Assembly: GCA_029260215.1 (NCBI GenBank)
Contig: JAJDDQ010000031.1
Coordinates: forward strand, 124,001-188,000
Direction: 5' to 3'
Length of the DNA: 64,000 nucleotides
Origin: Phycisphaerae bacterium
GTDB taxonomy: Bacteria; Planctomycetota; Phycisphaerae; UBA1845
Below are positions 19,696 to 34,258 of this stretch, piece by piece. Below the pieces are notes generated by a model. It saw nothing but the letters and a program-made list of their open reading frames with translations. It had not been told where the DNA came from and ran no database searches. Within the stretch, counting starts at the first letter, position 1. Every line of letters begins with the position of its first letter. The position numbers were made by a program, and so were the translations under genes.

Positions 19696-20331
19696 GTGTC
19701 TATTGGTGCAGACGTGGAAGAACGGTCGGATCGGTCAAGCGAGGAGGCGGCACACGATGCTCGGTTGGTGGAACAGGTCCGCCGCGGGCACAGTTCTTCG
19801 TTTGACGAGTTGGTGAAGCGTCATCAGCGGAAGGTTTTCGCGGTGGCTTATCGGTTGCTCAGTCATCGTGACGACGCCTGGGATGTGGCTCAGAATGCGC
19901 TGTTGCGGGCTTATCGGAGCCTGGATCAGCTTGACGATCCAGGCCGATTCGCACCGTGGCTGATGCGTATCGCACGGAATCTGTCGCTCAACTACCGTCG
20001 TTCGCGCTCGCGGACCGCGATGGGTGAGCTGGGCGAGGTTGTCGAAGCGACGCAGGCCACGCTTCGGGCGGCGGACGGTACGGTGCGTTCGACGGGGGGA
20101 AACGACGGCGGGGGTTTGGAGGATGTGCGGTCAGCCGTCGCGAAAGCGATGGGCGACCTGCCGGACAAGCAGCGGATGGCGCTCGTGCTGTCGAGCGTCG
20201 AAAAGGTGCCGCAAAAAGAGATTGCTGAAATGCTTGGCTGTACGGTTGAGCTGGTGAAGTGGAACGTGTTTCAGGCACGCAAGACGTTGAAGGAATCGCT
20301 GGCGAAATTCATGCCATCGAATGAGGATTGA
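19696..20331 (+). CDS. ECF sigma factor
   Basis: A 211-residue extracytoplasmic-function sigma factor. Region 2 is clear: FDELVKRHQRKVFAVAYRLL then DDAWDVAQNALLRAYRSLDQ, and APWLMRIARNLSLNYRRS fits regions 2.3-2.4. Region 4 holds GDLPDKQRMALVLSSVEK and a helix-turn-helix KEIAEMLGCTVELVKWNVF. A Gly-rich linker separates them. The start is GTG. A gene with one membrane segment follows after 3 bases, then an exported protein, so the three likely form one sigma/anti-sigma signalling unit. Confidence 0.92.
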   Translation: MSIGADVEERSDRSSEEAAHDARLVEQVRRGHSSSFDELVKRHQRKVFAVAYRLLSHRDDAWDVAQNALLRAYRSLDQLDDPGRFAPWLMRIARNLSLNYRRSRSRTAMGELGEVVEATQATLRAADGTVRSTGGNDGGGLEDVRSAVAKAMGDLPDKQRMALVLSSVEKVPQKEIAEMLGCTVELVKWNVFQARKTLKESLAKFMPSNED

Positions 20332-20334
20332 CCA

Positions 20335-20892
20335 TTGACGCGACCTGGCGAGGACAACAAGGGAATCGAGTTTCGCGTCAGCGAAATGCTCGACGGCCAG
20401 TTGGGCGAAGTTGAGCGGGCGAAGATCGAGGGTGACGCGCTCGCCAAGGCGACGGCGGAGGATTACCGGGCTGTTGACGGCTTGGTTGAGGCGTGGAGTC
20501 GCGATGTGCCGGAGGTCGACTGGTCGGCCTTTGAGCGTGAGGCGGCAGAGCGTCGTGCGGGCGTTTATCGGCGGGACCGTTTGCGTTTTGCGATACGCCT
20601 GTTCGCGCCCGTGGCCGCTGCGGCTGCGATTGTGCTGACGTTCATCACGATGGATTGGCCTGTGCGGACGAACAATGGCGTCATTGACACTGTGACGCAG
20701 GCGTATGAAGTCGAAGTTTCGGTTTCGCGCCCCGAAGAGTCTGAATTTGAAGAGGGGTCTATGGTTTCGGTTGTCAGGTATGGGCCTGCTGATGGCGAAC
20801 GTGTTGTGGAATCTCGGGCGGAAAGCGCAACGGTGGTCATCGCATACGCTTCGGTGGGCGGTGGCGACGGTATGTGGGGGTCGCGATGGTGA
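20335..20892 (+). CDS. Putative anti-sigma factor with one membrane segment
   Basis: A 185-residue protein with a cytoplasmic N-terminal half (FRVSEMLDGQLGEVERAKIE, like the first helices of anti-sigma domains), one membrane segment at about residues 85 to 105 (RLFAPVAAAAAIVLTFITM) and an acidic outer part. It begins with TTG three bases after the sigma gene, the standard coupling of an ECF factor to its anti-sigma factor. No zinc motif is visible. The assignment rests on position and topology. Its end overlaps the region where the next gene begins. Confidence 0.6.
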   Translation: MTRPGEDNKGIEFRVSEMLDGQLGEVERAKIEGDALAKATAEDYRAVDGLVEAWSRDVPEVDWSAFEREAAERRAGVYRRDRLRFAIRLFAPVAAAAAIVLTFITMDWPVRTNNGVIDTVTQAYEVEVSVSRPEESEFEEGSMVSVVRYGPADGERVVESRAESATVVIAYASVGGGDGMWGSRW

Positions 20893-20906
20893 AAACTAGG
20901 AACAGT

Positions 20907-22007
20907 ATGAAGAAACATCCCAGCCTGCGGTTCGTGGCTTATGTGTTTGTCGCGGTTCTGTGTCTGTCGATGGCTGGACGTGTGACCGCACAGCCCGATC
21001 TTGAATCGCTGGTTCATCAAGCTCTGGACCAGAAAATTACGCTGGAGGTTAAGGATAAGCCGTTGTCATCGGCGTTTCTGAAGGTGGCGGAGCAAACAGG
21101 TGTGTCGGTCACGATCAAGCCGTCGGTGCTCGCTTTGCTGCCGTATGGGGCTGACACGCGCATGAACGCGCGCATCGTCGATACGCCGCTGCGTGTGGGT
21201 ATTGAGCGTTTGCTGACGCCGTTGGGTTTGACCTATCGCGTTGAAGGCGGTGGCCTGGAAGTGATTCCAACGGAGCCATTGAGGCGCATCGTGGGGCGGG
21301 CGACATGGGATGAATTGGAGACGATCGCGTGGTTACGCAGGACTGAGTTCACCGGCGACGATGTGCAGAAGGAGGAATTGTCGCGGCGGTTGCGGTTCGA
21401 GGATTACAACAAACTGCCTGAGCCGTTGCTGAGGCTTTTCCAGGCAATGCAGGATAGTGGTGCCGGCACCCTGGATGAGGTTCTGACCGCCGCGCTCGGA
21501 GAGGGCAGGCCTTGGTATCCATCAGGCAAGCGCATCGTCGTAACCGGGGTTCTTCAACAGAGTCAACGCGAGCTAAAGCGTCGCGTGACATTGACCGCCA
21601 GCCACAAGCCGCTCTTTGACATTTTGACGGACTTGTCGAATCAGGCGGGCATCAGAATAATTTACGGGCCTGATGCGCTCGTCTCCCTGCCGATCCGGGC
21701 GCAAAAAGACTTTTCGATTGTCCTCAAGAATGCGACGGTCGAGCAAGCACTGGAAGAAATCAAGGCGGCTACGGGCTTGACGTATCAGCTCTATGTCGGC
21801 GGCGTGATTATCAATCGTGGTAGTCGGCGGAAAGCGGAATCGCGCGAGCGCGTCGGAGCGGTCCTGGTAATTCCCGGTCGTGGGGAAATTCCCATTTACG
21901 AAAGCGATATGTCGCCCGAGACGCGCAAGGCCCTCGACGAGCTGATTGATCGCCTGATGCGGGCGATTCCTGACGAGAGTGAAGAGTCACCGGACGCCGA
22001 TCAGTAG
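20907..22007 (+). CDS. Exported protein with two secretin-N/STN-like domains
   Basis: A 366-residue protein with a signal peptide (MKKHPSLRFVAYVFVAVLCL...AQ). Two similar alpha/beta repeats can be seen. The first, at about residues 35 to 125, has VKDKPLSSAFLKVAEQTGVS and LRVGIERLLTPLGLTYRVEG. The second, at about 235 to 320, has ASHKPLFDILTDLSNQAGIR and VEQALEEIKAATGLTYQLYV. This pattern is that of the secretin/TonB short N-terminal (STN) domain. There is no secretin barrel. It is the third gene after an ECF sigma factor, so it could be a surface sensor or target. I start at ATG 20907 (AGGAA upstream); ATG 20886 and GTG 20874 are alternatives. Confidence 0.65.
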   Translation: MKKHPSLRFVAYVFVAVLCLSMAGRVTAQPDLESLVHQALDQKITLEVKDKPLSSAFLKVAEQTGVSVTIKPSVLALLPYGADTRMNARIVDTPLRVGIERLLTPLGLTYRVEGGGLEVIPTEPLRRIVGRATWDELETIAWLRRTEFTGDDVQKEELSRRLRFEDYNKLPEPLLRLFQAMQDSGAGTLDEVLTAALGEGRPWYPSGKRIVVTGVLQQSQRELKRRVTLTASHKPLFDILTDLSNQAGIRIIYGPDALVSLPIRAQKDFSIVLKNATVEQALEEIKAATGLTYQLYVGGVIINRGSRRKAESRERVGAVLVIPGRGEIPIYESDMSPETRKALDELIDRLMRAIPDESEESPDADQ

Positions 22008-22100: not shown

Positions 22101-22925
22101 TTATGCGAGATCGTTTATGGCGTCGCGGACTCGGGCGCACTTTGTGAGAATCGATTCCAACTCAACCAGGGGCCAAACGGTGGCGGCGTCGCTTTTGGCG
22201 TTGTCGGGGTCGTCATGGACTTCCAGAAACAGTGCGTCACAACCGGCTGCGACGGCTGCGGCTGCGAGTGTGGGGGCGTATTGGCGTTGCCCGCCGCTTG
22301 CGTTGCCCGCTTCGCCGGGCAGTTGGCAACTGTGTGTGGCATCGAACACGACGGGGGCGAAGGTGCGCATGCGTGGAATGGCGGTCATGTCGTTCACCAG
22401 GCGGTTGTACCCGAAGAACGTGCCGCGCTCGGTCAGCAGCAGATTTTGATTGCCGGTCGATCGTACTTTTTGGATGGCGTTGCCCATTTCCTCGGGCGAC
22501 ATGTACTGCCCTTTTTTGACGTTGACGGCCACTCCGGTGTTGCCGGCGGCTAGGAGCAGGTCGGTTTGTCTGCACAGAAAAGCCGGAATCTGGATGCAGT
22601 CCAGCACCTCGCCCGCGGGGGCTGCGTGGGCGGCTTCGTGAATATCGGAGAGCACGGGCAGGCCGATGTCTCGTTTGACGCGATCGAGGATGGCCAACCC
22701 GTCGGTCAGCCCCGGTCCCCGGAAGGAGTCGATGGAGGAGCGATTGGCTTTGTCGAAGCTGGCTTTGAAAATCAGCGGCAGGTTCAGGGTCTGGCACACG
22801 TCGTGGATGGCTGCCGCAAGCCCCAGCGAGTGTTCGAGGGACTCGATCACGCAAGGCCCGGCGATGACGGTCAGCGGCCGACCTGGACCGATTCTGACGC
22901 CTGCAATGCTTGCCGTTTCTGACAT
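22101..22925 (-). CDS. kdsA: 3-deoxy-D-manno-octulosonate 8-phosphate synthase
   Basis: KdsA condenses phosphoenolpyruvate with arabinose 5-phosphate to Kdo 8-phosphate, for the inner core of LPS. At 274 residues the length is normal. Motifs: VIAGPCVIES, FKASFDKANRSS, VLSDIHE, NVKKGQYMSP, ERGTFFGYN, DATHSCQLPG and FLEVHDDP. The Cys in AGPC, with the later His, Glu and Asp, indicates the metal-dependent class (as in Aquifex) rather than the E. coli class, which has Asn there. I start at ATG 22925; a much longer open frame upstream is not family-like. It is divergent from the lipid operon. Confidence 0.95.
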   Translation of the reverse strand: MSETASIAGVRIGPGRPLTVIAGPCVIESLEHSLGLAAAIHDVCQTLNLPLIFKASFDKANRSSIDSFRGPGLTDGLAILDRVKRDIGLPVLSDIHEAAHAAPAGEVLDCIQIPAFLCRQTDLLLAAGNTGVAVNVKKGQYMSPEEMGNAIQKVRSTGNQNLLLTERGTFFGYNRLVNDMTAIPRMRTFAPVVFDATHSCQLPGEAGNASGGQRQYAPTLAAAAVAAGCDALFLEVHDDPDNAKSDAATVWPLVELESILTKCARVRDAINDLA

Positions 22926-23005
22926 GTAAATTCCGACCTTTCCACAGGTAACGACGGTATCTTTGTCCGATTGTGTGGTCCGTGTGCGTACTGGGGCCTG
23001 TTCGC

Positions 23006-23032
23006 TTGACAATTGGCCCAAAGCCTTATGAT
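23006..23032 (+). promoter_or_regulatory. Candidate sigma-70-like promoter for the lipid operon
   Basis: TTGACA at 23006-23011 and TATGAT at 23027-23032 are good -35 and -10 boxes. The spacer is only 15 bases, shorter than the ideal 17. They lie about 160 bases before the GTG of the 1437-residue enzyme, leaving a long G-rich leader. Confidence 0.4.
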
Positions 23033-23191
23033 ACACGGAATTAGGGATACGTAGAGGGGGGGGCGCGCGCGAGTTCGTCGATGCGGGCGGGCCTCGGTCT
23101 CGATTGAAGCCGGTGTTGGTTCGCGCAGACCGTCTCGAAAGGTGTCGGGCGGTGGTCGGTTCCTTAGAGGGGCGTTGGAAACGGTGAAGCC

Positions 23192-26100
23192 GTGATTGCA
23201 CAAGCTGAAACCCGTCAAGCCCGGATCGCGGAACGGTTGGCCGGCGAGCACATCCTCGTGACCGGTTCCACCGGTTTTCTGGCCAAGATTTTCGTCGAAA
23301 AATTATTGCGCTCCGTGCCTGATGTGGGTTCTATTTGTCTCCTGGTGCGTCCGCGCGCCGACGGGACTGCGGCTGGACAGCGTGTCCGACGCGACGTGAT
23401 CGGCAGCAGTGCGTTTGATCGCCTGCGTGCCGTCCTCGGCCCGGGTTTTGAAGAATACTGGCGGTCGAAGATCGACGTTGTTTCGGGCGATTTGACGCAG
23501 GACAGGCTTGGGCTGTCGAAAAAGAACTACGCAGCGCTGGCCCGGCGGGTGACGGTCGTGGTCAACAGTGCAGCCACCGTTACATTTGACGAGCGGCTTG
23601 ATGCTGCGCTCGCGTTGAACGTCGAAGGCCCGCGCCGGCTGCTGCGCTTTGCGAAGGACGCGGGCAACGTGCCATTTTTGCACGTCTCGACTGCGTACGT
23701 CAGCGGCGTGCGACGGGGGGACATCCCCGAGGAATTGACACCGGCTGGTCATTCCGTCGCATCGTACATCGACTCGAAGAATGGCAAGCCTGACGTCGCG
23801 GCTGACTTTGACATCGAACAAACGCTCGCTCGCCTGTACGGCAAGGTCGAGGACGTAGTGGCCGAGCATGGTGGAGCCGGCTCGCGTGCCCGGCGCGATT
23901 TGATCGCGGTCGGCATGGATTATGCACAGGAGCATGGCTGGAACGATACGTATACCTGCACGAAATGGCTGGCGGAGCAGTTTCTGGCCCGTGATCGCGA
24001 TCAGGTTCCGTTGGTGTTGCTGCGTCCGGCTATTATCGAAGGCAGCTACGACGAGCCGGCGCCGGGCTGGATCGATGGTTTGCGCATGGCGGACCCGCTG
24101 ATTCTCGCGTTTGGCCGTGGCAAGCTGAAGGAATTCCCGGCGGACAAGTCGGTCGCGCTCGATTTTATCCCCGTAGACTTTGTGGCCAACGCGATGGTGG
24201 CAGTTCTGCCGGCGGGTCGGAAGAAACCGATGCTGGAGGTTTACCAGTGTGCGTCGAGCGGTCGCAACCCGGTGCGCATGACGGAGATAATTCGCTCGGT
24301 GTCGCAGGCATTCCGCAAGCGCCCGATGCGGGATGACTCCGGGCGTCCGATTCGCGTTTCGGATATGCAATGTATCCCGCGTGACGAGTTCCTCCGCCGC
24401 TGGCAACGACGACTGAAGTTCATCCGGCGGATGCGCGGGTTCCTGAAATCGACGAAGATCGCACCGCGCTATCGCAAGAAGCTGGCCTCCGTCGAGGCGC
24501 AGGTCGCGCAGCTCATCTACTTCGTGAAGATTTACGCGCCGTACACGCATCTTGATTGCCGATTCCTGGATGACAAGTTGCATTCCGTGTTTGAATCGAT
24601 GCATCCGGAGGATCAAAAGCAGTTTTCGTTCGACGTAGCCCGCATCGACTGGCGGGATTACATCGTCAATCGGCACGTTGTGGGCGTGCGACACTTTGTG
24701 CTCGGTTCGGGTACGGAACTCGAAGCGCCCATGCTGGCGGCTGGCTACGCTGTCGAGGAGGAATCGCCCGCGGCTCCGTCGCCGATGCAGGTGTTGGCGC
24801 CGTTGCGTGGCGAGTCGATATTCTCTGTCATCGAAAACGCCGCCGTCCGTTACCCCAAGCGCATCGCGTTGCAGGTTTGTCGCGACGGCCGCTGGACACG
24901 CTGCACGTACAAGCAGCTTCTCAACACGACGGCTGCCGTTTCGAGACGGTTTCAGGAGCAAGGCCTGTCGCAGGGCGATCACATCGCCATCTATTGCGAG
25001 AATGGGCCGGAATGGGGTCTGACCTACATCGCAGCCATGCGCAGCGGCCTGACAGTCGTTCCGCTGGACAAGCAGCTGCCAGCTTCGACGGCCGTCGGGA
25101 TGGCGGAATTCGCCGATGTGAAGCTGTTCTGTGCAGCGCCGGGCGTGCTGAAGGATATTCAATCTGCAGTGGACGCTGAATCGACCATGAAGATCGTCGC
25201 GCTGGATGCGACGTTTGTGCCGCCACCAGGTACCGCCCGCGATCCAGGGCCTGAGCCTGCGAGCGTGCCGGGCGATGCCGTTGCGTCGATCGTGTTCACG
25301 TCAGGCACGACGCTCGCGCCCAAGGGTGTCATGCTGCGGCACGCGAACTTCCTGGCCAACGCGCGCAGTCTGGTACACGTCCAATCCGTACATGCCGACG
25401 ATCAGTTTCTGTCGGTGCTGCCCATGCACCACGTTTTCGAGTTTACCGGCGGATTTCTCGTGCCGCTCTCCAATGCGTCCACGGTGACGTATGTGGAGAA
25501 CCTCAACGCGACCGAAATTCTCGAAACCATGCAGGCGACTGGCACAACGGTGATGATGGTGGTCCCCCGACTGCTCAAACTGTTTCACGATGGCATCATG
25601 CGCGAAGTCGACAATCGCGGATGGTTGGCCCGCAAGGTGTTCAGCCTGCTCGGCTGGATCGGCGATCGCGCCGGCGGTGAATTGTGCAAGAAGCTGTTCG
25701 CCCCGGTCCACAAGAAATTCGGCGGGCGATTGCGCATGTTCGTGTGTGGTGGATCGGCGCTGCCATCCTGGTTGTTCCTCGCGTTTCGGCGGCTTGGATT
25801 CCCGGTGTACGAAGGTTACGGCCTGACTGAGACGTCGCCGGTTTTGACAGTCAACCCCAATGGCGATCCGCGGGCTGGGTCGGTCGGCCTGCCGCTGCCG
25901 GAAACAGAGCTTGAAATCCGCAATCAGGACACATCGGGCGTGGGCGAACTCTTCGTCCGAAGCCCCAGCGTGATGGCGGGCTATTACAAGAACAAAGACG
26001 CCACAGCCGAAGTGCTGGAGGAAGATTGGTTTCGAACCGGCGATCTGTGCCGGCGGGATGCCGACGGGTTCGTCTATGTGGCTGGCCGGGCGAAGGATGT

Positions 26101-27505
26101 GATCGTTACGGCTGCGGGCAAGAATGTTTACCCCGACGAGGTTACCGCCAACTACGCCGATCTTCCGCATGTCAAGGAGATGTGCGTTTTGGCGGTCCCG
26201 AACAGCGATGGCATCGGTGATCGGGTGGATGCGGTGGTCGTGCTTAATCTGGACGAGGTCGCCGACGTCGATCACGGCAAGATTGAAACCGAAGTCCGCG
26301 ATGCCGTGGCAGCCGCCGGTGAGAAACAGCCCAGTTATCAGCGCATAAGCCACTTGTACTTCTGGAGCGGTGAGTTGCCGCGCACGACAACGCTTAAGGT
26401 CAAACGCAATGAAGTGCTCCGGCAATTGCTGGCCCGCCGCACCGACGCGCGGAGTCGCGGCCGGCGGATGGGCGACGGCTGGTCTGCGGAAGAAGCGTCG
26501 GCGGCGCCTCAGACCGCCAACGAAGCCTGGCTTCGCGATACGTTGATTCGATTTACGAATCGATCGCCGGCCCAGGTCAAGCCGGAAGCACACCTTCTGT
26601 TGGACCTCGGTGTGGACAGCCTGCTCAAGGTGCAGGTTCTCGGCGAGATCGAATCGTGTTTCGGTGTCGATTTGTCGGATGAAGTAGCCGCCCGCGTGAG
26701 TCGTGTCGCCGACCTGTTGGCCATCATCGGCAGTCGCACGCCGGTCAATGGCTCGTCCAGTGGAAAAGCCGCGTGGCGATCCAAAGTGCAGGGTAATCGC
26801 AACGGTCAACCTTTCGTGAACGGTCGCACGCCGCTTCTTCTTCGGCCGCTGCGCTGGACGTTGCGCGGTGTGATCGCATTGCTGTGCAACAGCTACATTC
26901 GCGTTCGGGTTGAGGGTGTGGAAAACATTCCCAAACGCAGCGCGTTTATCCTGGCAGCCAATCACGCTTCACATCTCGATTCCGCCGTCGTGCTCGCGGC
27001 TGTTTCCGGTGCGCTACGCCAAACGTCACGGCGATGCTACGTGGCCGCTGCGGAAGATTACTTCTTCGACAGCCCCTTCAAAGCCATGATCTTCCGGGAC
27101 TTGTTCGACTCCATCCCGTTCGACCGCAACGCCGACGGCATGCGCGGGCTGAGTCGCTGTGCGGAAGCGCTCCAGCAGGGGCACGCTGTGCTGCTCTTCC
27201 CCGAGGGTACGCGCACGGTGACGGGCGAGATTCAGTCCTTCAAAATCGGAGCGGCTGTTCTGTCCAGCGAAATCGGCGTGCCCGTCGTGCCGGTGCGCAT
27301 CGCCAACACATTCGATCTGTTTCCCAAGGGCCGACGCTTCATCAAACCCGGGGCTGTTGAAGTTCGATTCTCGCCGCCCGTGCAGCCGGCCGACGTAGAC
27401 AAACTGTCCGCCGACGCACGCTACAAAATCTACCGGGATGTCGCAGCCGAGGTGCAGCACTGCGTCGAGTCGGAAAACGGGCGGAGCGTCCTCACGCATG
27501 TCTGA
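23192..27505 (+). CDS. Multifunctional lipid enzyme: fatty acyl reductase, acyl-ACP/CoA ligase, acyl carrier and PlsC-type acyltransferase (ElbD-like)
   Basis: A 1437-residue fusion of four domains. Residues 1 to about 510 are an NAD(P)-binding thioester/fatty-acyl reductase with TGSTGFLAK at 23 and the catalytic YTCTK near 255. About 545 to 1075 is an AMP-forming acyl ligase: TSGTTLAPKG near 703, YEGYGLTETSP near 873, WFRTGDL near 948. About 1110 to 1185 is a carrier domain with the phosphopantetheine Ser in LGVDSLLKV. About 1215 to the end is a PlsC acyltransferase with NHASHLD near 1257 and FPEGTRT near 1335. One chain could thus load, reduce and transfer fatty chains to a glycerol backbone. 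From memory, myxobacterial ElbD for ether lipids has similar parts. GTG start, weak ribosome site. Confidence 0.85.
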   Translation: MIAQAETRQARIAERLAGEHILVTGSTGFLAKIFVEKLLRSVPDVGSICLLVRPRADGTAAGQRVRRDVIGSSAFDRLRAVLGPGFEEYWRSKIDVVSGDLTQDRLGLSKKNYAALARRVTVVVNSAATVTFDERLDAALALNVEGPRRLLRFAKDAGNVPFLHVSTAYVSGVRRGDIPEELTPAGHSVASYIDSKNGKPDVAADFDIEQTLARLYGKVEDVVAEHGGAGSRARRDLIAVGMDYAQEHGWNDTYTCTKWLAEQFLARDRDQVPLVLLRPAIIEGSYDEPAPGWIDGLRMADPLILAFGRGKLKEFPADKSVALDFIPVDFVANAMVAVLPAGRKKPMLEVYQCASSGRNPVRMTEIIRSVSQAFRKRPMRDDSGRPIRVSDMQCIPRDEFLRRWQRRLKFIRRMRGFLKSTKIAPRYRKKLASVEAQVAQLIYFVKIYAPYTHLDCRFLDDKLHSVFESMHPEDQKQFSFDVARIDWRDYIVNRHVVGVRHFVLGSGTELEAPMLAAGYAVEEESPAAPSPMQVLAPLRGESIFSVIENAAVRYPKRIALQVCRDGRWTRCTYKQLLNTTAAVSRRFQEQGLSQGDHIAIYCENGPEWGLTYIAAMRSGLTVVPLDKQLPASTAVGMAEFADVKLFCAAPGVLKDIQSAVDAESTMKIVALDATFVPPPGTARDPGPEPASVPGDAVASIVFTSGTTLAPKGVMLRHANFLANARSLVHVQSVHADDQFLSVLPMHHVFEFTGGFLVPLSNASTVTYVENLNATEILETMQATGTTVMMVVPRLLKLFHDGIMREVDNRGWLARKVFSLLGWIGDRAGGELCKKLFAPVHKKFGGRLRMFVCGGSALPSWLFLAFRRLGFPVYEGYGLTETSPVLTVNPNGDPRAGSVGLPLPETELEIRNQDTSGVGELFVRSPSVMAGYYKNKDATAEVLEEDWFRTGDLCRRDADGFVYVAGRAKDVIVTAAGKNVYPDEVTANYADLPHVKEMCVLAVPNSDGIGDRVDAVVVLNLDEVADVDHGKIETEVRDAVAAAGEKQPSYQRISHLYFWSGELPRTTTLKVKRNEVLRQLLARRTDARSRGRRMGDGWSAEEASAAPQTANEAWLRDTLIRFTNRSPAQVKPEAHLLLDLGVDSLLKVQVLGEIESCFGVDLSDEVAARVSRVADLLAIIGSRTPVNGSSSGKAAWRSKVQGNRNGQPFVNGRTPLLLRPLRWTLRGVIALLCNSYIRVRVEGVENIPKRSAFILAANHASHLDSAVVLAAVSGALRQTSRRCYVAAAEDYFFDSPFKAMIFRDLFDSIPFDRNADGMRGLSRCAEALQQGHAVLLFPEGTRTVTGEIQSFKIGAAVLSSEIGVPVVPVRIANTFDLFPKGRRFIKPGAVEVRFSPPVQPADVDKLSADARYKIYRDVAAEVQHCVESENGRSVLTHV

Positions 27506-28256
27506 CGGGCAGGCTCGAAGCGCCGAAAATTCGCCCGGCGAAGCCGCTTTCTTCGACGTTGACGGCACACTGGTATCCACGCATATCGTCCACCAATACG
27601 TCTTCGCGCGCAAAATGCTCGCGCACGATCGCGGTGCGGTAAGCCAATTGATGCACCCGCTCTGGTTCGCAGCTTTCACAGTCAGGTGCCTTCAGTATCT
27701 CTATCTCGATCGTGTCAGCCGGACGCGTATGAACATTGCCTTCTACCGCAACTACGCCAACCTGCCAGCCGATCGCGTGCGGGCTGTTGCGGGGGATTGT
27801 CTGGAGCACATCCTGAAACCGAATCTGTTTCCCGCCGGTTTCGCCTGTGTCGGCGAGCATTTGAAAGCTGGGCGACATGTCGTGCTGGTCACCGGATCGA
27901 TCGACTTTTTCATCGCCCCGCTCGCACAACACTTTGCGCAATGTCACGACGCATCGCCGCAAAACGTGCGTGTGTTGGCCCGCACGCTCGTCGAACGCGA
28001 AGGTCGATTCACGGGCGCGCTTGACGGTCCGCCCATCGGCGAGGGCGAGAAGGCTGAGGTCATCCAAAAATACGCGAAAGAAGAGGGCATCGCTCTGGAT
28101 GCGAGCTATGCTTACGGTGACAGCATCGCCGATTTAGCCATGCTCGAAACCGTCGGAAACCCCGTGGCGATCAACGCCGATTCAGAACTGACACACGTCG
28201 CGCGCGAGCGCGGTTGGCCTGCCTTGACCTGGAAAAAGAACGCGGGGGACGGATGA
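27498..28256 (+). CDS. HAD-IB family phosphatase of the lipid operon
   Basis: A 252-residue SerB-like HAD hydrolase. Motif I is FFDVDGTL near residue 18, motif II is VTGS near 130, and motif IV is YGDSIADLAML near 210; a helical cap lies between. It probably removes a phosphate from a small lipid or glycerol phosphate. Members of this group are often fused to or next to PlsC acyltransferases, as here. Its ATG (27498) lies inside the end of the multifunctional enzyme gene, overlapping by 8 bases, so translation is coupled; I reject the upstream open frame because it only reads through that overlap. The stop overlaps the next gene by four bases. Confidence 0.85.
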   Translation: MSDGQARSAENSPGEAAFFDVDGTLVSTHIVHQYVFARKMLAHDRGAVSQLMHPLWFAAFTVRCLQYLYLDRVSRTRMNIAFYRNYANLPADRVRAVAGDCLEHILKPNLFPAGFACVGEHLKAGRHVVLVTGSIDFFIAPLAQHFAQCHDASPQNVRVLARTLVEREGRFTGALDGPPIGEGEKAEVIQKYAKEEGIALDASYAYGDSIADLAMLETVGNPVAINADSELTHVARERGWPALTWKKNAGDG

Positions 28257-29542
28257 ACGCAGTCGTTTTCGAAAAGAGCATTCCCCGATACGCAGCCCTG
28301 AAAATCCTCGGGCCTCGGCGGGCGGCGCGCATCGCGGTCAGCAACTTGCTCAAGCTCTGCCCTGTATCCATGCGCGATATACCCGAACCGAAGCTGCCCA
28401 CGCGCGAATGGCTGCGCGTAAAGCCGACGCTGTCCGGCGTTTGCGGCTCGGATATCGGCGTCATCCTCTCCAAGGGCAGCCCCTACCTGTCGCCGCTGAC
28501 CTCGACCCCGTTCGTGTTGGGTCATGAGGTTGTGGGCGTCGTCACTGAGGTTGGCGCGGATGTTGCCCGCTACGAGGACGATCGCGATTTGTCGCGCATG
28601 CAGGTCGGCGATCGCGTGTTGCTCGAACCCGCGCTGGGATGCGAAGCCCGAGGCATCCGCCCACGGTGCAAGCCCTGTGCCAATGAGCAGGCAGCGCTGT
28701 GTCGCAACGTGACACGCGGGACGCTGTCCGCCGGGATTCAAACGGGGTACTGCCGCGACACGGGCGGCGGATGGTCAAGCGGATTCGTCGGCCACCGATC
28801 GCAGCTTCACCGTGTGCCCGAAGGAATGTCCGACACGGTGGCTGTCCTGACCGAACCGCTTACCTGCGTGATGCACGGCGTGCTGCGCGCCCTGCCCCCG
28901 GACGACGGAACTGCCCTGGTCATCGGTTGTGGATCGATAGGTTTGTTGACCGTAGCCGCCTTGCGTGCGAAGTCCAAAGCGCGCATCGTCGCCGTCGCGA
29001 AGCATCGCCATCAGCGAGAGATGGCTGCGAAGCTCGGTGCAGATGTCGTGTTGCACGCCGGGTCCGCCCGCAACATTCGCGAACGCTACCGTACCTGGGC
29101 TGACGAACTGAACGCCGAACTGCACTACCCCGAAATCGGCAAGCCCACCGTCGTCGGCGGGGCATCGGTAACGTACGATTGTGTCGGGTCTTCCATGAGC
29201 ATCGACGACGCCGTGCGCTTCACCGATGCTGACGGACACTTGGTGCTCATAGGCATGCCGGGCATTCCTTCCAACATCGACTGGACCGCGATATGGTACA
29301 AGGAGCTTTCGGTACACGCAGCCTACGCCTACGGCCCCGAGCAGGTAATCGACGACGCAGGCAAACCGCGTCGCGTGCAGACGTGGGATCTTGCCGTCGA
29401 AATGTTGAGCGATTGGGGGGATCGGCTGGCACCACTGGTCGGCGAGCCGTTCGCACTGGGCGATTACCGTCGCGCTTTTCAAGCCGCACTGTTCACGGGT
29501 GTTTCTGGGGCCGCCAAAACCGTATTTCGGATTGAGTCATGA
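28253..29542 (+). CDS. Zinc-dependent alcohol dehydrogenase-like oxidoreductase
   Basis: A 429-residue medium-chain dehydrogenase. The catalytic zinc ligands are seen in GVCGSDIG and FVLGHEVVG. A structural-zinc-like cluster of four cysteines lies at about residues 129 to 151 (GCEARG...CKPCANEQ..LC), and the NAD(P) site is VIGCGSIGLL near residue 222. It is longer than typical family members (about 350) owing to an N-terminal extension and an insertion after the Rossmann motif. The substrate is unknown; in this operon a lipid aldehyde/alcohol or a glycerol-phosphate-like compound is plausible. It overlaps both neighbours by four bases (ATGA), so it is made in step with them. Confidence 0.85.
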   Translation: MNAVVFEKSIPRYAALKILGPRRAARIAVSNLLKLCPVSMRDIPEPKLPTREWLRVKPTLSGVCGSDIGVILSKGSPYLSPLTSTPFVLGHEVVGVVTEVGADVARYEDDRDLSRMQVGDRVLLEPALGCEARGIRPRCKPCANEQAALCRNVTRGTLSAGIQTGYCRDTGGGWSSGFVGHRSQLHRVPEGMSDTVAVLTEPLTCVMHGVLRALPPDDGTALVIGCGSIGLLTVAALRAKSKARIVAVAKHRHQREMAAKLGADVVLHAGSARNIRERYRTWADELNAELHYPEIGKPTVVGGASVTYDCVGSSMSIDDAVRFTDADGHLVLIGMPGIPSNIDWTAIWYKELSVHAAYAYGPEQVIDDAGKPRRVQTWDLAVEMLSDWGDRLAPLVGEPFALGDYRRAFQAALFTGVSGAAKTVFRIES

Positions 29543-31173
29543 TTGCAGGAAACGAAGAAGCCCGCCGCACGCCGATCACAAAAAACGGGGACAGCCCCTA
29601 CACGCATTTCGTCGGCTCGGACGACCCGCCGTACCTCTTTCACTGCGGCGAGAACTTCGAGATGCACAAGCTGCCCGTGGGCACGCGCGTGCTCCTGCCC
29701 AAGCCGCCGCTCCCCGGTATCCGCGACGTGCGCGGCGCGATCAACCACTCGCTCGACCATCCGCTCGGCAGCGAACCGCTAACCGATCTGCTCAAACCGG
29801 GCATGAAAGTTACCGTCGCTTTCGATGATATTTCCCTGCCACTCCCGCCCATGAAAAGCCCGGATATCCGCAGGCAGATTATGGAGATCGTGCTCGATCG
29901 TCTCGAACGTGCGGGTGTGGAAGATATTCACTTTATCTGCGCGATCTGCCTCCATCGTCGTCTCACCGCCGGTGAGTTGAAGCACATCACCGGCCCGCGC
30001 ATCTTCAAAGAATATTGGCCCGATCGCTTGTACAACCACGATGCGGAAGACCCGGAGGGCAACGTCACCGTCGGCGTGACGCCCGAAGGCGAAGACGTGG
30101 ATATCAACCGTCGAGCCGTCGAATCCGACCTCATCATCTACGTCAACATCAACCTCGTTACGATGGACGGCGGGCACAAATCCGTCCCCGTCGGACTCGG
30201 TACGTACAAGACTGTTCGCCACCATCACAACGTCAAGACGATGATGGCCACCAACAGCTACATGGACCCCGAGACGAGCACCTTCCACCGCTCCTGCGAT
30301 CGACAGGGAGACGTGCTCGCAGGCCACGCGCGCATCTTCACCATAGAAACCACGCTCAACAGCGACACCTTTTCACCCCTGCTCGGATTTTTGCAAAAGC
30401 GTGAATCGGAGTGGTCCGCGTTCGACCACCTCAACTACCGGGCCAACCGAACACTGCTCAAAGTCTTGCCCGGCGCTGCGCGTCGCTGGGCTTATCAAGC
30501 TTTACCCGCACCCTACGGATTGACCGGCATCCACGCCGGTGCCACCGCACCCGTTCACGAAAAAACACTCGTAAACGTACACGAACAACAGATGATTGAC
30601 GTCGACGGACAGGCGGACATCCTGCTCGTAGGCCTGCCCTCCATAGGCCCGTACAGCGTGCATTCCACGCTCAACCCCATCCTGGTGTACTGCATGGCCG
30701 CCGGTTACTTTTTCAATTTCTACCGAGGCCAACCCCTCGTGCGCAAAGGCGGCGTGATGATCGTCGTCCACCCGCTCGAGAACAAATTCCACAAAGTACA
30801 CCACCCGTCCTACATCGATTTCTTCAACGAAGTGCTGACCGAAACGCGCGTGCCGGCTGAGCTTGAACAACGCTTCGAAAAGCAATACGCGGAAAACGAA
30901 CACTACATTCACCTCTATCGAACGTCGTACGCCTACCACGGCGTGCATCCTTTCTACATGTGGTATTGGGGGTGCAAGGGTATGGATCACATGGGCAGAG
31001 TCATCGCGGTCAACCCGAGCAGCTCCGCCGCCGCCGAACGGATCGGCTTCGCACAGGCTCCGTCGCTCAACACCGCCATTGGACAGGCCAGAGAGTTCCT
31101 CAACATGCCCGCAGACCAAACCAGGATCACCTACTTCCACTGTCCGCCCATCGTGATGTGCGACGTACACTAG
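29539..31173 (+). CDS. LarA-like (DUF2088) protein in the lipid operon
   Basis: A 544-residue relative of the nickel-pincer lactate racemase LarA. The N-terminal domain holds VTVAFDDISLPLPPM (LarA has a similar DITRP motif), then CAICLHRRLT with a His, and MDGGHKSVPVGLGTYKTV then RHHHN. The last segment aligns by eye with the LarA GGRK..PG motif whose Lys carries the pincer cofactor, and with a following active-site His. The C-terminal half is larger than in LarA (about 425 residues). It could epimerise or redox-cycle a hydroxy group on a small acid or sugar. Its place between an alcohol dehydrogenase and a lipid kinase is unusual. ATGA overlap upstream. Confidence 0.75.
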   Translation: MIAGNEEARRTPITKNGDSPYTHFVGSDDPPYLFHCGENFEMHKLPVGTRVLLPKPPLPGIRDVRGAINHSLDHPLGSEPLTDLLKPGMKVTVAFDDISLPLPPMKSPDIRRQIMEIVLDRLERAGVEDIHFICAICLHRRLTAGELKHITGPRIFKEYWPDRLYNHDAEDPEGNVTVGVTPEGEDVDINRRAVESDLIIYVNINLVTMDGGHKSVPVGLGTYKTVRHHHNVKTMMATNSYMDPETSTFHRSCDRQGDVLAGHARIFTIETTLNSDTFSPLLGFLQKRESEWSAFDHLNYRANRTLLKVLPGAARRWAYQALPAPYGLTGIHAGATAPVHEKTLVNVHEQQMIDVDGQADILLVGLPSIGPYSVHSTLNPILVYCMAAGYFFNFYRGQPLVRKGGVMIVVHPLENKFHKVHHPSYIDFFNEVLTETRVPAELEQRFEKQYAENEHYIHLYRTSYAYHGVHPFYMWYWGCKGMDHMGRVIAVNPSSSAAAERIGFAQAPSLNTAIGQAREFLNMPADQTRITYFHCPPIVMCDVH

Positions 31174-31183
31174 CTGACCAATC

Positions 31184-32131
31184 ATGGCTCGCGTCGCGTC
31201 CTACACCATCGTCTACAACCCCGTAGCAGGTCGGGGTCGAGCCGCGCGAATCGCTTCCGTCGTGCGCGATGAACTCATCCGCAGGAATCAATCCTGCACG
31301 CTCATCGCCACCGAAAAACGCGGGCAGGCGGAATCAATCGCCCGCGACTTGATCTCAAGCAATTCCTCGGGCGGGCCGGTCTGCGTGGCTGCCTGCGGCG
31401 GCGATGGAACGATCCAGGACGTCGCCAACGCCCTCGCGAACGTACCCCCGGACCGCGCCGTGATGGCTGTCATCCCCGCTGGGCGATGCAACGATTTCGC
31501 CCGCGCGCTCGGCCTGCCAAAATTGCCCACCGAGTTGGCCGGCGTGTTGATCGACGGCGTCGCCCGCCCGACCGACCTCGGCAGAGTAGGCCAACGCTAC
31601 TTCTGCACGATCGCCGCAATGGGGTTCGACGCAGCCGTCTCGCGATTCGTCAACGACATGCGCATGCCGCTCAAAGGGCCAGCCGCCTACGTCTACGGCA
31701 CACTGAACATGCTCCTGCGTTACCGCACGCCGACGCTGCGTCTCACCGGCGATTTCGGCCAACACGAAGGACCGGTGTTCCTGGCTGCGACCGCCAACAC
31801 ACCCTGGTACGGCGGAGCAATGCACATCGCACCGCCAGCCAACCCCTTCGACGGAAAACTCGACGTGTGTCTCGTCGGGCCAACGACCAAATTCCGCGTC
31901 CTCGGCATGCTCAGTCGCGTCATGAGAGGCCGACATGTTGAACTGCCCGAAGTGAGCATGCTGCGGACTACTCGCCTGAACGCGGAACTGATTTCAGGCC
32001 AGGATGTCGAAATCTGGGCCGACGGTGAACCCATAAGCCAACTCCCCGCCACCATCGAATGCGTCCCCGGTGCGGTGACCATCATGCTGCCGCGCGAGAG
32101 GCCTGTTGATAAATCGCCGGTGAATCCGTAG
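31184..32131 (+). CDS. Diacylglycerol kinase family lipid kinase
   Basis: A 315-residue soluble lipid kinase of the DgkB/YegS type, which phosphorylates diacylglycerol or a related lipid with ATP. It starts with the typical TIVYNPVAGRGRA, has the nucleotide-binding AACGGDGTIQDVAN motif near residue 68, PAGRCNDFARAL near 98, and the C-terminal beta sandwich with DGKLDVCLVGPT. It begins 10 bases after the LarA-like gene. In this operon it would recycle or make a phosphorylated lipid after the phosphatase step, or activate an alkyl-acyl-glycerol; that is inference. Confidence 0.9.
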   Translation: MARVASYTIVYNPVAGRGRAARIASVVRDELIRRNQSCTLIATEKRGQAESIARDLISSNSSGGPVCVAACGGDGTIQDVANALANVPPDRAVMAVIPAGRCNDFARALGLPKLPTELAGVLIDGVARPTDLGRVGQRYFCTIAAMGFDAAVSRFVNDMRMPLKGPAAYVYGTLNMLLRYRTPTLRLTGDFGQHEGPVFLAATANTPWYGGAMHIAPPANPFDGKLDVCLVGPTTKFRVLGMLSRVMRGRHVELPEVSMLRTTRLNAELISGQDVEIWADGEPISQLPATIECVPGAVTIMLPRERPVDKSPVNP

Positions 32132-32145
32132 TGTAGACGACTGAA

Positions 32146-32466
32146 ATGACCGAAGAAGACCAGCCCAAAACGTATCTCGCGGAAACCAAACCCAGCGTCG
32201 AGTCGGCGTCCGCCATCGCCCATGCGCTCGAGGCGATGGCCAACGAAGCCTTCCAAATCTTCACCAACGCGCCGGGCCGATACCGCTACGATTTACACAA
32301 TAAGCAAGGCTGGCTCGATCTGCGCGAGTCTCTGTGGTCCCGGCGGCTGGTGGAATCAATTCCCGAGCCGACGCGCCGCCAACTTGATCTGCTCTGCGTG
32401 AGATGGCTGCACCTGCACAAACATCTCACGTTCATCTCCGCCACCAAGCCGGTCTGGAATTCCTGA
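32146..32466 (+). CDS. Small conserved-looking hypothetical protein at the end of the lipid operon
   Basis: A 106-residue protein I do not recognise. It is mainly helical, with an acidic N-terminus (TEEDQPKTYLAETKPSVESA), then EAMANEAFQIFTNAPGRYRY and an Arg/Leu/His-rich C-terminal half (RRQLDLLCVRWLHLHKHL). There is no signal peptide or membrane segment. It begins 14 bases after the kinase gene in the same direction, so it is likely the last gene of the operon. A family B repeat follows about 30 bases after the stop. Confidence 0.55.
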   Translation: MTEEDQPKTYLAETKPSVESASAIAHALEAMANEAFQIFTNAPGRYRYDLHNKQGWLDLRESLWSRRLVESIPEPTRRQLDLLCVRWLHLHKHLTFISATKPVWNS

Positions 32467-33082: not shown

Positions 33083-34186
33083 TCACGGCGTCGTCGCAAA
33101 CGCAGCCTCGGACCCAAAGCAGGGTATCCCGGTCGGATACGGATCCGCCGGCAGCGTGTCGACCTGCCAGCGCGAACCGAACGGAACATCACCGCTGCGA
33201 ATAATCACGCAATGCCAAGTTTGATAGTCGCCCGATGGATAAGAACGCAATCGCGGCTGCGGAATCTGATGGCCATTGATGTAGACGGAATCAACATGAC
33301 CATCCACAAACGCAGCCTGGTAGGTCTGCTCAGGGCCGTGCCAACCCTTCATGGCGAATTCAACATCATCCGCCAACGGTCCCCCGCTCAGAAAACTGCA
33401 ATCGTCGCTGCCGAAGTTCTTTCGCCACGCAAAACGCCCTGCGTTTTCGAGAATGAAAAGAGTTTCCTCCGCATTGGGCACGGTCGACAGAGGACGAAGG
33501 AGCGACGTATTGGACGAGAGTGTGCAACCACCGCCCGGGACGCCGATCCACTGCGCGCTGGCTGTATAGCTGTTTCCGTAATGATCGTAGGACGACAAGC
33601 CGGAATCGCGCCAAGCAGAGAAGTGATGTCCCGCGTAGCCGTAATCTTCCGGACAGCGATAGACATCAAGCTCCAACCGAATATCACGAAGCCAGTTGAT
33701 GTTGTTCTTGCCCGGTTCATCCTGATAATCCGTGAAAACATCACCGAACAGAACCTGATTAAGTCCCCGCGTCGCAGGCCCCCGACCGGCGGCTGTGCCC
33801 CACTTCGAAGTGTACGGATTGGTCTCGACCTGCGGCTCACCGCGACCCGCCTTCCCGCCCCATTCCGCCTCGTTCATCGTCCCCGGCTGAGTTCCAAACA
33901 GTGCATGCTTGGGCAGACTCAACTCGTCCGGATCGGTCATCGCGTGAATCGCGCCAGCCATGCTGATTTGCGCCTGATTGTCGCGACACTGCGCGATCTG
34001 TGAATTCCCCCGCACGTCAGCCGCACTGGTCACGACCACCGTCATGACCGCCCCGACGGACATCATCGACATCGCCGCCTCGATAAGCGTCAAACCTCGC
34101 GCGCGGAATCCCCGCGCTTGCGTGGATTTCATCCAACCGCCGCGGCTGCGACGATCCTGCAACAACAGACTTCGTGATATTCTCAT
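33083..34186 (-). CDS. Prepilin-type (pseudopilin-like) exported protein
   Basis: A 367-residue protein with a long basic leader followed by the prepilin cleavage motif RARGLTLIEA and a hydrophobic helix (MSMMSVGAVMTVVVTSAADV). It would be processed by a prepilin peptidase and assembled or displayed by a type IV pilus/type II machinery. The remainder resembles the large family of planctomycete prepilin-type proteins (DUF1559-like): QAAFVDGHVDSVYINGHQIP near residue 315 is the H-x-DGH-like segment of that family. I start at ATG 34186, behind GAGGAG seven bases upstream; open frame upstream adds 14 residues. Confidence 0.75.
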   Translation of the reverse strand: MRISRSLLLQDRRSRGGWMKSTQARGFRARGLTLIEAAMSMMSVGAVMTVVVTSAADVRGNSQIAQCRDNQAQISMAGAIHAMTDPDELSLPKHALFGTQPGTMNEAEWGGKAGRGEPQVETNPYTSKWGTAAGRGPATRGLNQVLFGDVFTDYQDEPGKNNINWLRDIRLELDVYRCPEDYGYAGHHFSAWRDSGLSSYDHYGNSYTASAQWIGVPGGGCTLSSNTSLLRPLSTVPNAEETLFILENAGRFAWRKNFGSDDCSFLSGGPLADDVEFAMKGWHGPEQTYQAAFVDGHVDSVYINGHQIPQPRLRSYPSGDYQTWHCVIIRSGDVPFGSRWQVDTLPADPYPTGIPCFGSEAAFATTP

Positions 34187-34258
34187 GGCTCGGCTCCTCG
34201 TACACGGTTCCCATAATCGCTTCGTCAAACGACAGGCTGTCCCGCCCGCCGCGTTCTC

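Follow-up and report, generated by a model that had tools for sequence, protein, structure and literature searches.

The closest described counterpart of the locus analyzed here is the myxobacterial elbABCDE cluster (Lorenzen et al. 2014, via PMC9131029; MIBiG BGC0000871 per PMC9426513). According to PMC9131029, elbD and elbE mutants of Myxococcus xanthus lose their ether lipids, elbD mutants also lose the aldehyde, and ElbD has been shown in vitro both to activate fatty acids and to load the acyl carrier protein (ACP); the same review reports ether-forming activity in vitro for no Elb protein. ElbD-dependent formation of the ether bond has been an open question since 2014. The review describes most of the pathway ahead of the final desaturation as unknown and terms elbC a gene of "unknown function" (PMC9131029).

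ElbD has already been reported in Planctomycetota (PMC11868695). In Pontiella, ElbD homologues are present and ether lipids were undetected (PMC11868695), so that ElbD homologues alone do not prove the presence of ether lipids.

Architecture of the operon

In the 64-kb window, by which we mean the whole stretch of DNA that was analyzed, six open reading frames (ORFs), all on the + strand, span positions 23192-32466. The host assembly comprises 5.0 Mb and is 97% complete. The first ORF (23192..27505) encodes an ElbD-type fusion protein (FUS) of 1437 residues, defined by domain matches and by motif conservation in 40 ElbD-type proteins. It consists of a fatty acyl reductase domain (FAR; NAD_binding_4, residues 23-335, about 23258-24712), an acyl-CoA/acyl-ACP synthetase domain (ACS; AMP-binding, residues 548-932, about 24833-26431), an acyl carrier domain with Ser1143 (PP-binding, residues 1113-1177, about 26528-26722), and a PlsC-type acyltransferase domain (PlsC, residues 1237-1370, about 26900-27301). 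It is followed by a HAD-IB phosphatase (27498..28256; TIGR01490, 110.6 bits against a cut-off of 98.3), a Zn-dependent medium-chain dehydrogenase (ADH; 28253..29542; ADH_N/ADH_zinc_N), a LarA-family protein (LAR; 29539..31173; Lar_N), a YegS/DgkB-type lipid kinase (31184..32131; DAGK_cat/YegS_C; TIGR00147, 142.3 bits against a cut-off of 118.65), and a small ORF of 106 residues (32146..32466) that matches no family. The LarA-family protein scores 791.6 bits with the LarAH14/15/16 model (NF052592; cut-off 740).

The ORFs and the domain search thus bear out the original prediction of six genes in a single direction with these domains. Its further claim, of overlaps of ATGA or longer between the genes, holds for the first three junctions (8 bp, ATGA and ATGA) and fails at the last two, where gaps of 10 bp (LAR-kinase) and 14 bp (kinase-small ORF) were found. 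The HAD and ADH genes likely start at the ATG codons at 27498 and 28253, respectively. Scans for promoters and terminators returned counts near those of shuffled sequence.

Several neighboring genes were also recorded. A divergent kdsA-like gene (22101-23201) lies upstream of the fusion, and three ORFs stand in a row at 19696-22007: one for a sigma-70-family (ECF-like) sigma factor (19696-20331), one that matches no family, and one for a protein with an STN domain (20874-22007). On the - strand, a 381-residue protein (33083-34228) carries a prepilin-like motif near its N-terminus (GLTLIEAAMSMMSVG) and has zero Pfam matches.

Kinship with the myxobacterial elb cluster

The comparison was made with the elb cluster of Citreicoccus inhibens, which was identified via the description in PMC9131029 and not from the M. 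xanthus sequence itself. This cluster reads SDR-HAD-LAR-ElbD-SDR, the order that the description of elbABCDE gives, and the window's phosphatase therefore corresponds to ElbB and its LarA-family protein to ElbC, with 40% and 48% identity to the Citreicoccus proteins, respectively. The fusion aligns with Citreicoccus ElbD over its full length, at 32% identity and with the same domain order. Furthermore, the LarAH14/15/16 model gives Citreicoccus ElbC 827 bits, placing both proteins above the NF052592 cut-off, from which we infer that ElbC of myxobacteria belongs to the LarA family.

The homology to the elb cluster therefore goes beyond generic domains, as shown by the full-length ElbD alignment and the ElbB and ElbC counterparts. 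The description of the operon as Elb-like is sustained for these three proteins; it does not extend to ElbE, which is replaced by an unrelated zinc dehydrogenase. The match of the LarA-like protein to ElbC, and its co-occurrence with ElbD described below, go beyond what the original prediction contained.

Conservation of gene order

The fusion is present in 29 of the 36 genomes of the window's family and, among sampled genomes from other families of the same order, only in G047. FUS, HAD and ADH follow each other in one order and on one strand in all 23 family loci that extend that far. The kinase comes next in 19 of the 20 loci that extend further; one of these 19 matches is weak and sits at a contig end. 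In 12 family loci, LAR is placed between the ADH and kinase genes or, where the contig stops short, comes after ADH. Such conservation across the family argues that the FUS-HAD-ADH order is not due to chance. Homologues of the small ORF were found only in the close relatives L039 and L040, which makes its membership in the system doubtful.

Outside the family, a planctomycete locus of family f33 holds all five genes as a single run (L210), and in families f50 and f56 the genes of the ADH-type set are distributed among two or three sites (FUS-HAD; ADH-LAR or LAR-kinase). A genome scan additionally recovered FUS-HAD-ADH-LAR in an Armatimonadota metagenome-assembled genome (MAG) and HAD-LAR-FUS in a row in a Myxococcales MAG.

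Two variations within the family were noted. In 15 family loci (L041, L042, L045-L049, L051-L053, L055, L057, L058, L061 and L063), an extra stand-alone gene for a PlsC-type acyltransferase closely precedes the fusion; the window does not have it. The family members G004 and G034, which lack both ElbD and LAR, contain a run of separate genes of similar function (L066:6493-17589, and its sister L065), which by Pfam matches encodes in L066 a HAD-FAR fusion, a second reductase, AMP-binding enzymes, an enoyl-CoA hydratase, an ACP, a YegS-type kinase and a PlsC protein. This run may stand in for the operon or be its analogue in unfused form.

Exchange of ADH and ElbE

Across 38 ElbD-containing genomes, ElbE occurs in 25 (at least 204 bits) and the window-type ADH in 12 (at least 469 bits, with the next-best ADH paralogues reaching no more than 383 bits); no genome has both, and one, G189, has neither. 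In the window's own genome, the best SDR match to ElbE is unlinked to the operon and scores 140 bits at 31% identity, compared with at least 204 bits in true ElbE genomes. This mutual exclusivity, together with the five-gene run and the split sets described above, points to joint action of all five genes and to a single role that is filled by either ADH or ElbE. By sequence, the nearest solved relative of ADH is the NADP(H) ketose reductase 1e3j, a kinship that would fit the reduction of a glycerol-type ketone.

The nearest solved chain to the kinase is 2qv7 (153 bits). A YegS-type kinase gene is also found directly after elbE in the myxobacterium G064 (L168:13618-15554), and the kinase thus occurs in the ElbE-type architecture as well. 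A 656-residue ORF in L168, considered as a kinase with an unknown N-terminal domain, was rejected, as its N-terminal part is an over-extended frame over elbE.

Proposed pathway and the nature of the product

Gene content, motif integrity, co-occurrence and the exchange of parts between genomes together favor an elb-type reading. With moderate confidence, we propose that the operon represents a second elb architecture, that it most likely makes alkyl-ether glycerolipids, and that ElbC is a required partner in their synthesis. In the pathway envisaged, the ACS domain would activate a fatty acid and load it onto the ACP domain, and the FAR domain would reduce the resulting thioester to an aldehyde or alcohol. 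Attaching the chain to the glycerol backbone, or adjusting it there, would then require ElbC, the LarA-like protein, together with an oxidoreductase encoded apart from the fusion (the zinc dehydrogenase here, the SDR ElbE in myxobacteria). The PlsC domain would acylate the second position, and the HAD phosphatase and YegS kinase may interconvert the phosphorylated and neutral glycerolipid.

The catalytic motifs of all four fusion domains are kept in the 40 ElbD-type proteins, in support of these activities. An alternative is that the operon makes something else from reduced fatty chains: fatty alcohols, wax esters or, for example, an unusual glycerolipid with ester bonds only. Under that alternative, FAR would yield an alcohol, the acyltransferase would join an acyl chain, and ElbC and ADH would tailor a hydroxy acid or polyol head. 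In its favor, the N-terminus of the fusion matches a solved fatty acyl-CoA reductase (7eoz, 298 bits). In a tree with three stand-alone FARs, the FAR domains of the two architectures do not clearly group with each other, and that of the window matches the stand-alone FARs about as well as it matches the FAR of ElbD; the two fusions may therefore have separate origins. The alternative is likewise consistent with the Pontiella result and with the state of the in vitro evidence for Elb proteins outlined in the opening paragraph. However, the elbB-elbC-elbD core is common to the very cluster in which mutation of elbD or elbE abolishes ether lipids, and the co-conserved DgkB/YegS-type glycerolipid kinase is more in keeping with a glycerolipid than with a wax ester. 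We therefore regard a product other than an ether lipid as unlikely, and retain the alkyl-ether glycerolipid as the preferred one.

Co-occurrence of LAR and ElbD

The distribution of LAR was followed in 292 Planctomycetota genomes (an even sample), 174 Myxococcota genomes and the 36 genomes of the window's family; most of these are MAGs, in which gaps may cause absences, and the search scored a limited number of candidates per genome. Among the Planctomycetota, a FAR-containing ElbD is present in 17 of 292 genomes and an ElbC-type LAR in 15, all of them among those 17, with none in the 275 sampled genomes that lack ElbD. In the two exceptions, G114 and G189, LAR was not found upon re-examination, and the ElbD frame of G189 contains a stop. 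LAR was also found in none of four Planctomycetota genomes with FAR-less relatives of ElbD. In Myxococcota, all 126 ElbD genomes possess LAR, as do only two or three of the 48 ElbD-less genomes. Six myxobacteria had seemed to carry LAR without ElbD; three proved to be weak matches, and the other three, G412, G478 and G486, fell below the ElbD threshold, G478 because its ElbD is cut at a contig end (L232), which leaves G412 and G486. Within the window's family, LAR accompanies ElbD in 29 of 29 genomes and occurs in none of the seven without it. The corresponding Fisher p values, which ignore relatedness, are 3e-23 (Planctomycetota), 2e-38 (Myxococcota) and 1e-7 (the window's family).

Relatedness alone does not explain this pattern. 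In 11 family genomes LAR belongs to a distant clade (34-39% identity) and is unlinked to the operon, no family genome was seen to hold both forms, and the ElbD tree of the family implies at least six switches between the operon-type and the unlinked, divergent LAR. In planctomycetes outside the family, LAR can lie megabases away from ElbD, as in G201, and tracks it all the same. No conserved neighborhood of their own was seen around the unlinked LAR genes, in a survey where greedy ORF picking missed some genes.

These 11 unlinked genes, and the hypothetical connection of single-histidine LarA proteins to carbohydrate metabolism drawn from genomic context (PMC12611868), would suit a LAR that is a passenger in the operon and acts separately in hydroxy-acid or sugar metabolism. 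Yet the unlinked LAR follows ElbD as faithfully as described, and LAR is absent, or nearly so, from the ElbD-less genomes of all three samples, which makes a mere passenger quite improbable. We instead read LAR/ElbC as a required partner of the FAR-containing ElbD. Our literature search, outside of which most subscription journals lay, found no link of ElbC or LarA to ether lipids.

That the fusion is an Aas-like phospholipid remodeling enzyme with an idle reductase domain, as the PRK08633-type acyl-ACP synthetase/acyltransferase model (213 bits on the fusion) and the existence of the FAR-less relatives L071-L076 might suggest, is scarcely credible, since the FAR motifs, Tyr254 and Lys258 among them, do not vary across 40 proteins and LAR in Planctomycetota goes with the FAR-containing forms and is absent from the four FAR-less genomes. 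A further domain arrangement was observed in Acidobacteriota OFTM223 (L069/L171), whose FAR-ACS-ACP protein has no acyltransferase and whose genome has neither LAR nor LarC.

The active site of LAR

In an alignment built via solved LarA relatives, Lys214, His230, His139 and Asp97 of LAR correspond to Lys184, His200, His108 and Asp72 of LarA, and none of the four varies across 53 sequences. By this alignment, Lys214 is the lysine of the nickel-pincer nucleotide (NPN), His230 the nickel ligand and His139 a catalytic histidine. At the position of the second catalytic histidine (LarA His174), no histidine occurs in any of the three LAR groups, and LarA groups 14 and 15 are likewise described in the literature as lacking it. 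A predicted model computed from four sequences, of moderate confidence (mean pLDDT 68.6), matches LarA structures along its length and is closest to the single-histidine enzyme 9q3k (TMt 0.76), with 9q2u and 9q3j also near (PMC12611868); identity to solved LarA structures is only 18-21%. LAR is thus a putative NPN enzyme with a single catalytic histidine.

LarC is found in 26 of the 29 family ElbD genomes, including that of the window; of the three assemblies without it, two fall short of 80% completeness and the other, in 330 contigs, reaches 90%. As ElbD-less relatives also carry LarC, it does not single out the pathway and was rejected as a marker. Its presence permits the NPN cofactor and does not in itself show it.

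The Frankia LarAH14 protein had no racemase activity on the tested substrates, and the authors of that study suggested that a LarA homologue minus one histidine may move a hydride to an adjacent site rather than racemize (PMC7583248). ElbC probably performs nickel-pincer hydride transfer and not classical racemization. More tentatively, and as a possibility that we would not yet favor, ElbC may be an NPN enzyme whose non-racemase hydride transfer is essential to ElbD-dependent ether lipid synthesis, perhaps by converting a fatty aldehyde-glycerol adduct to a ketone-bearing alkyl ether, whose ketone would then be reduced by ElbE or the zinc dehydrogenase. Such a role for ElbC, in which its hydride transfer would form or complete the ether, fits the list of parts, and is speculation. 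If true, it would be the first role for the NPN cofactor in making lipids, judging by the literature searched.

Implications and comparison with known systems

Since ElbD was already reported in Planctomycetota, what is new here, measured against the literature searched, is the LarA identity of ElbC and its co-occurrence with ElbD, the exchange of ADH and ElbE, and an operon that includes the kinase. The co-occurrence names a specific missing partner for ElbD-dependent ether bond formation, and ElbC gains a candidate chemistry in nickel-pincer hydride transfer. Judging by the exchange, either of two unrelated enzymes may carry out the second oxidoreductase step. In addition, a signature of four or five genes would be a stricter predictor of bacterial ether lipid capacity than ElbD homology alone, which matters where ether lipids serve as biomarkers.

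Among known families, the window's kinase shares DAGK_cat and YegS_C with the DgkB/YegS lipid kinases and differs in being bound to an operon. The window's LAR, above the cut-off of the LarAH14/15/16 family, keeps the NPN lysine, the nickel-ligand histidine and one catalytic histidine, but is tied to ElbD and not to glycolysis genes. The ElbD-centered clusters of sponge symbionts share the ElbD-type core with flanking hydrolases and oxidoreductases; they differ in that their hosts are Acidobacteriota and Poribacteria and in that the text consulted names no LarA-like protein (PMC9426513). With myxobacterial elbABCDE, the operon shares the ElbD-type FAR-ACS-ACP-AT fusion, ElbB and the LarA-like ElbC. 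In contrast to that cluster, the window's fusion stands first rather than fourth, LAR is fourth rather than directly before ElbD as in Citreicoccus, elbA is absent, a zinc dehydrogenase takes the place of the SDR ElbE, and a YegS-type kinase has been added.
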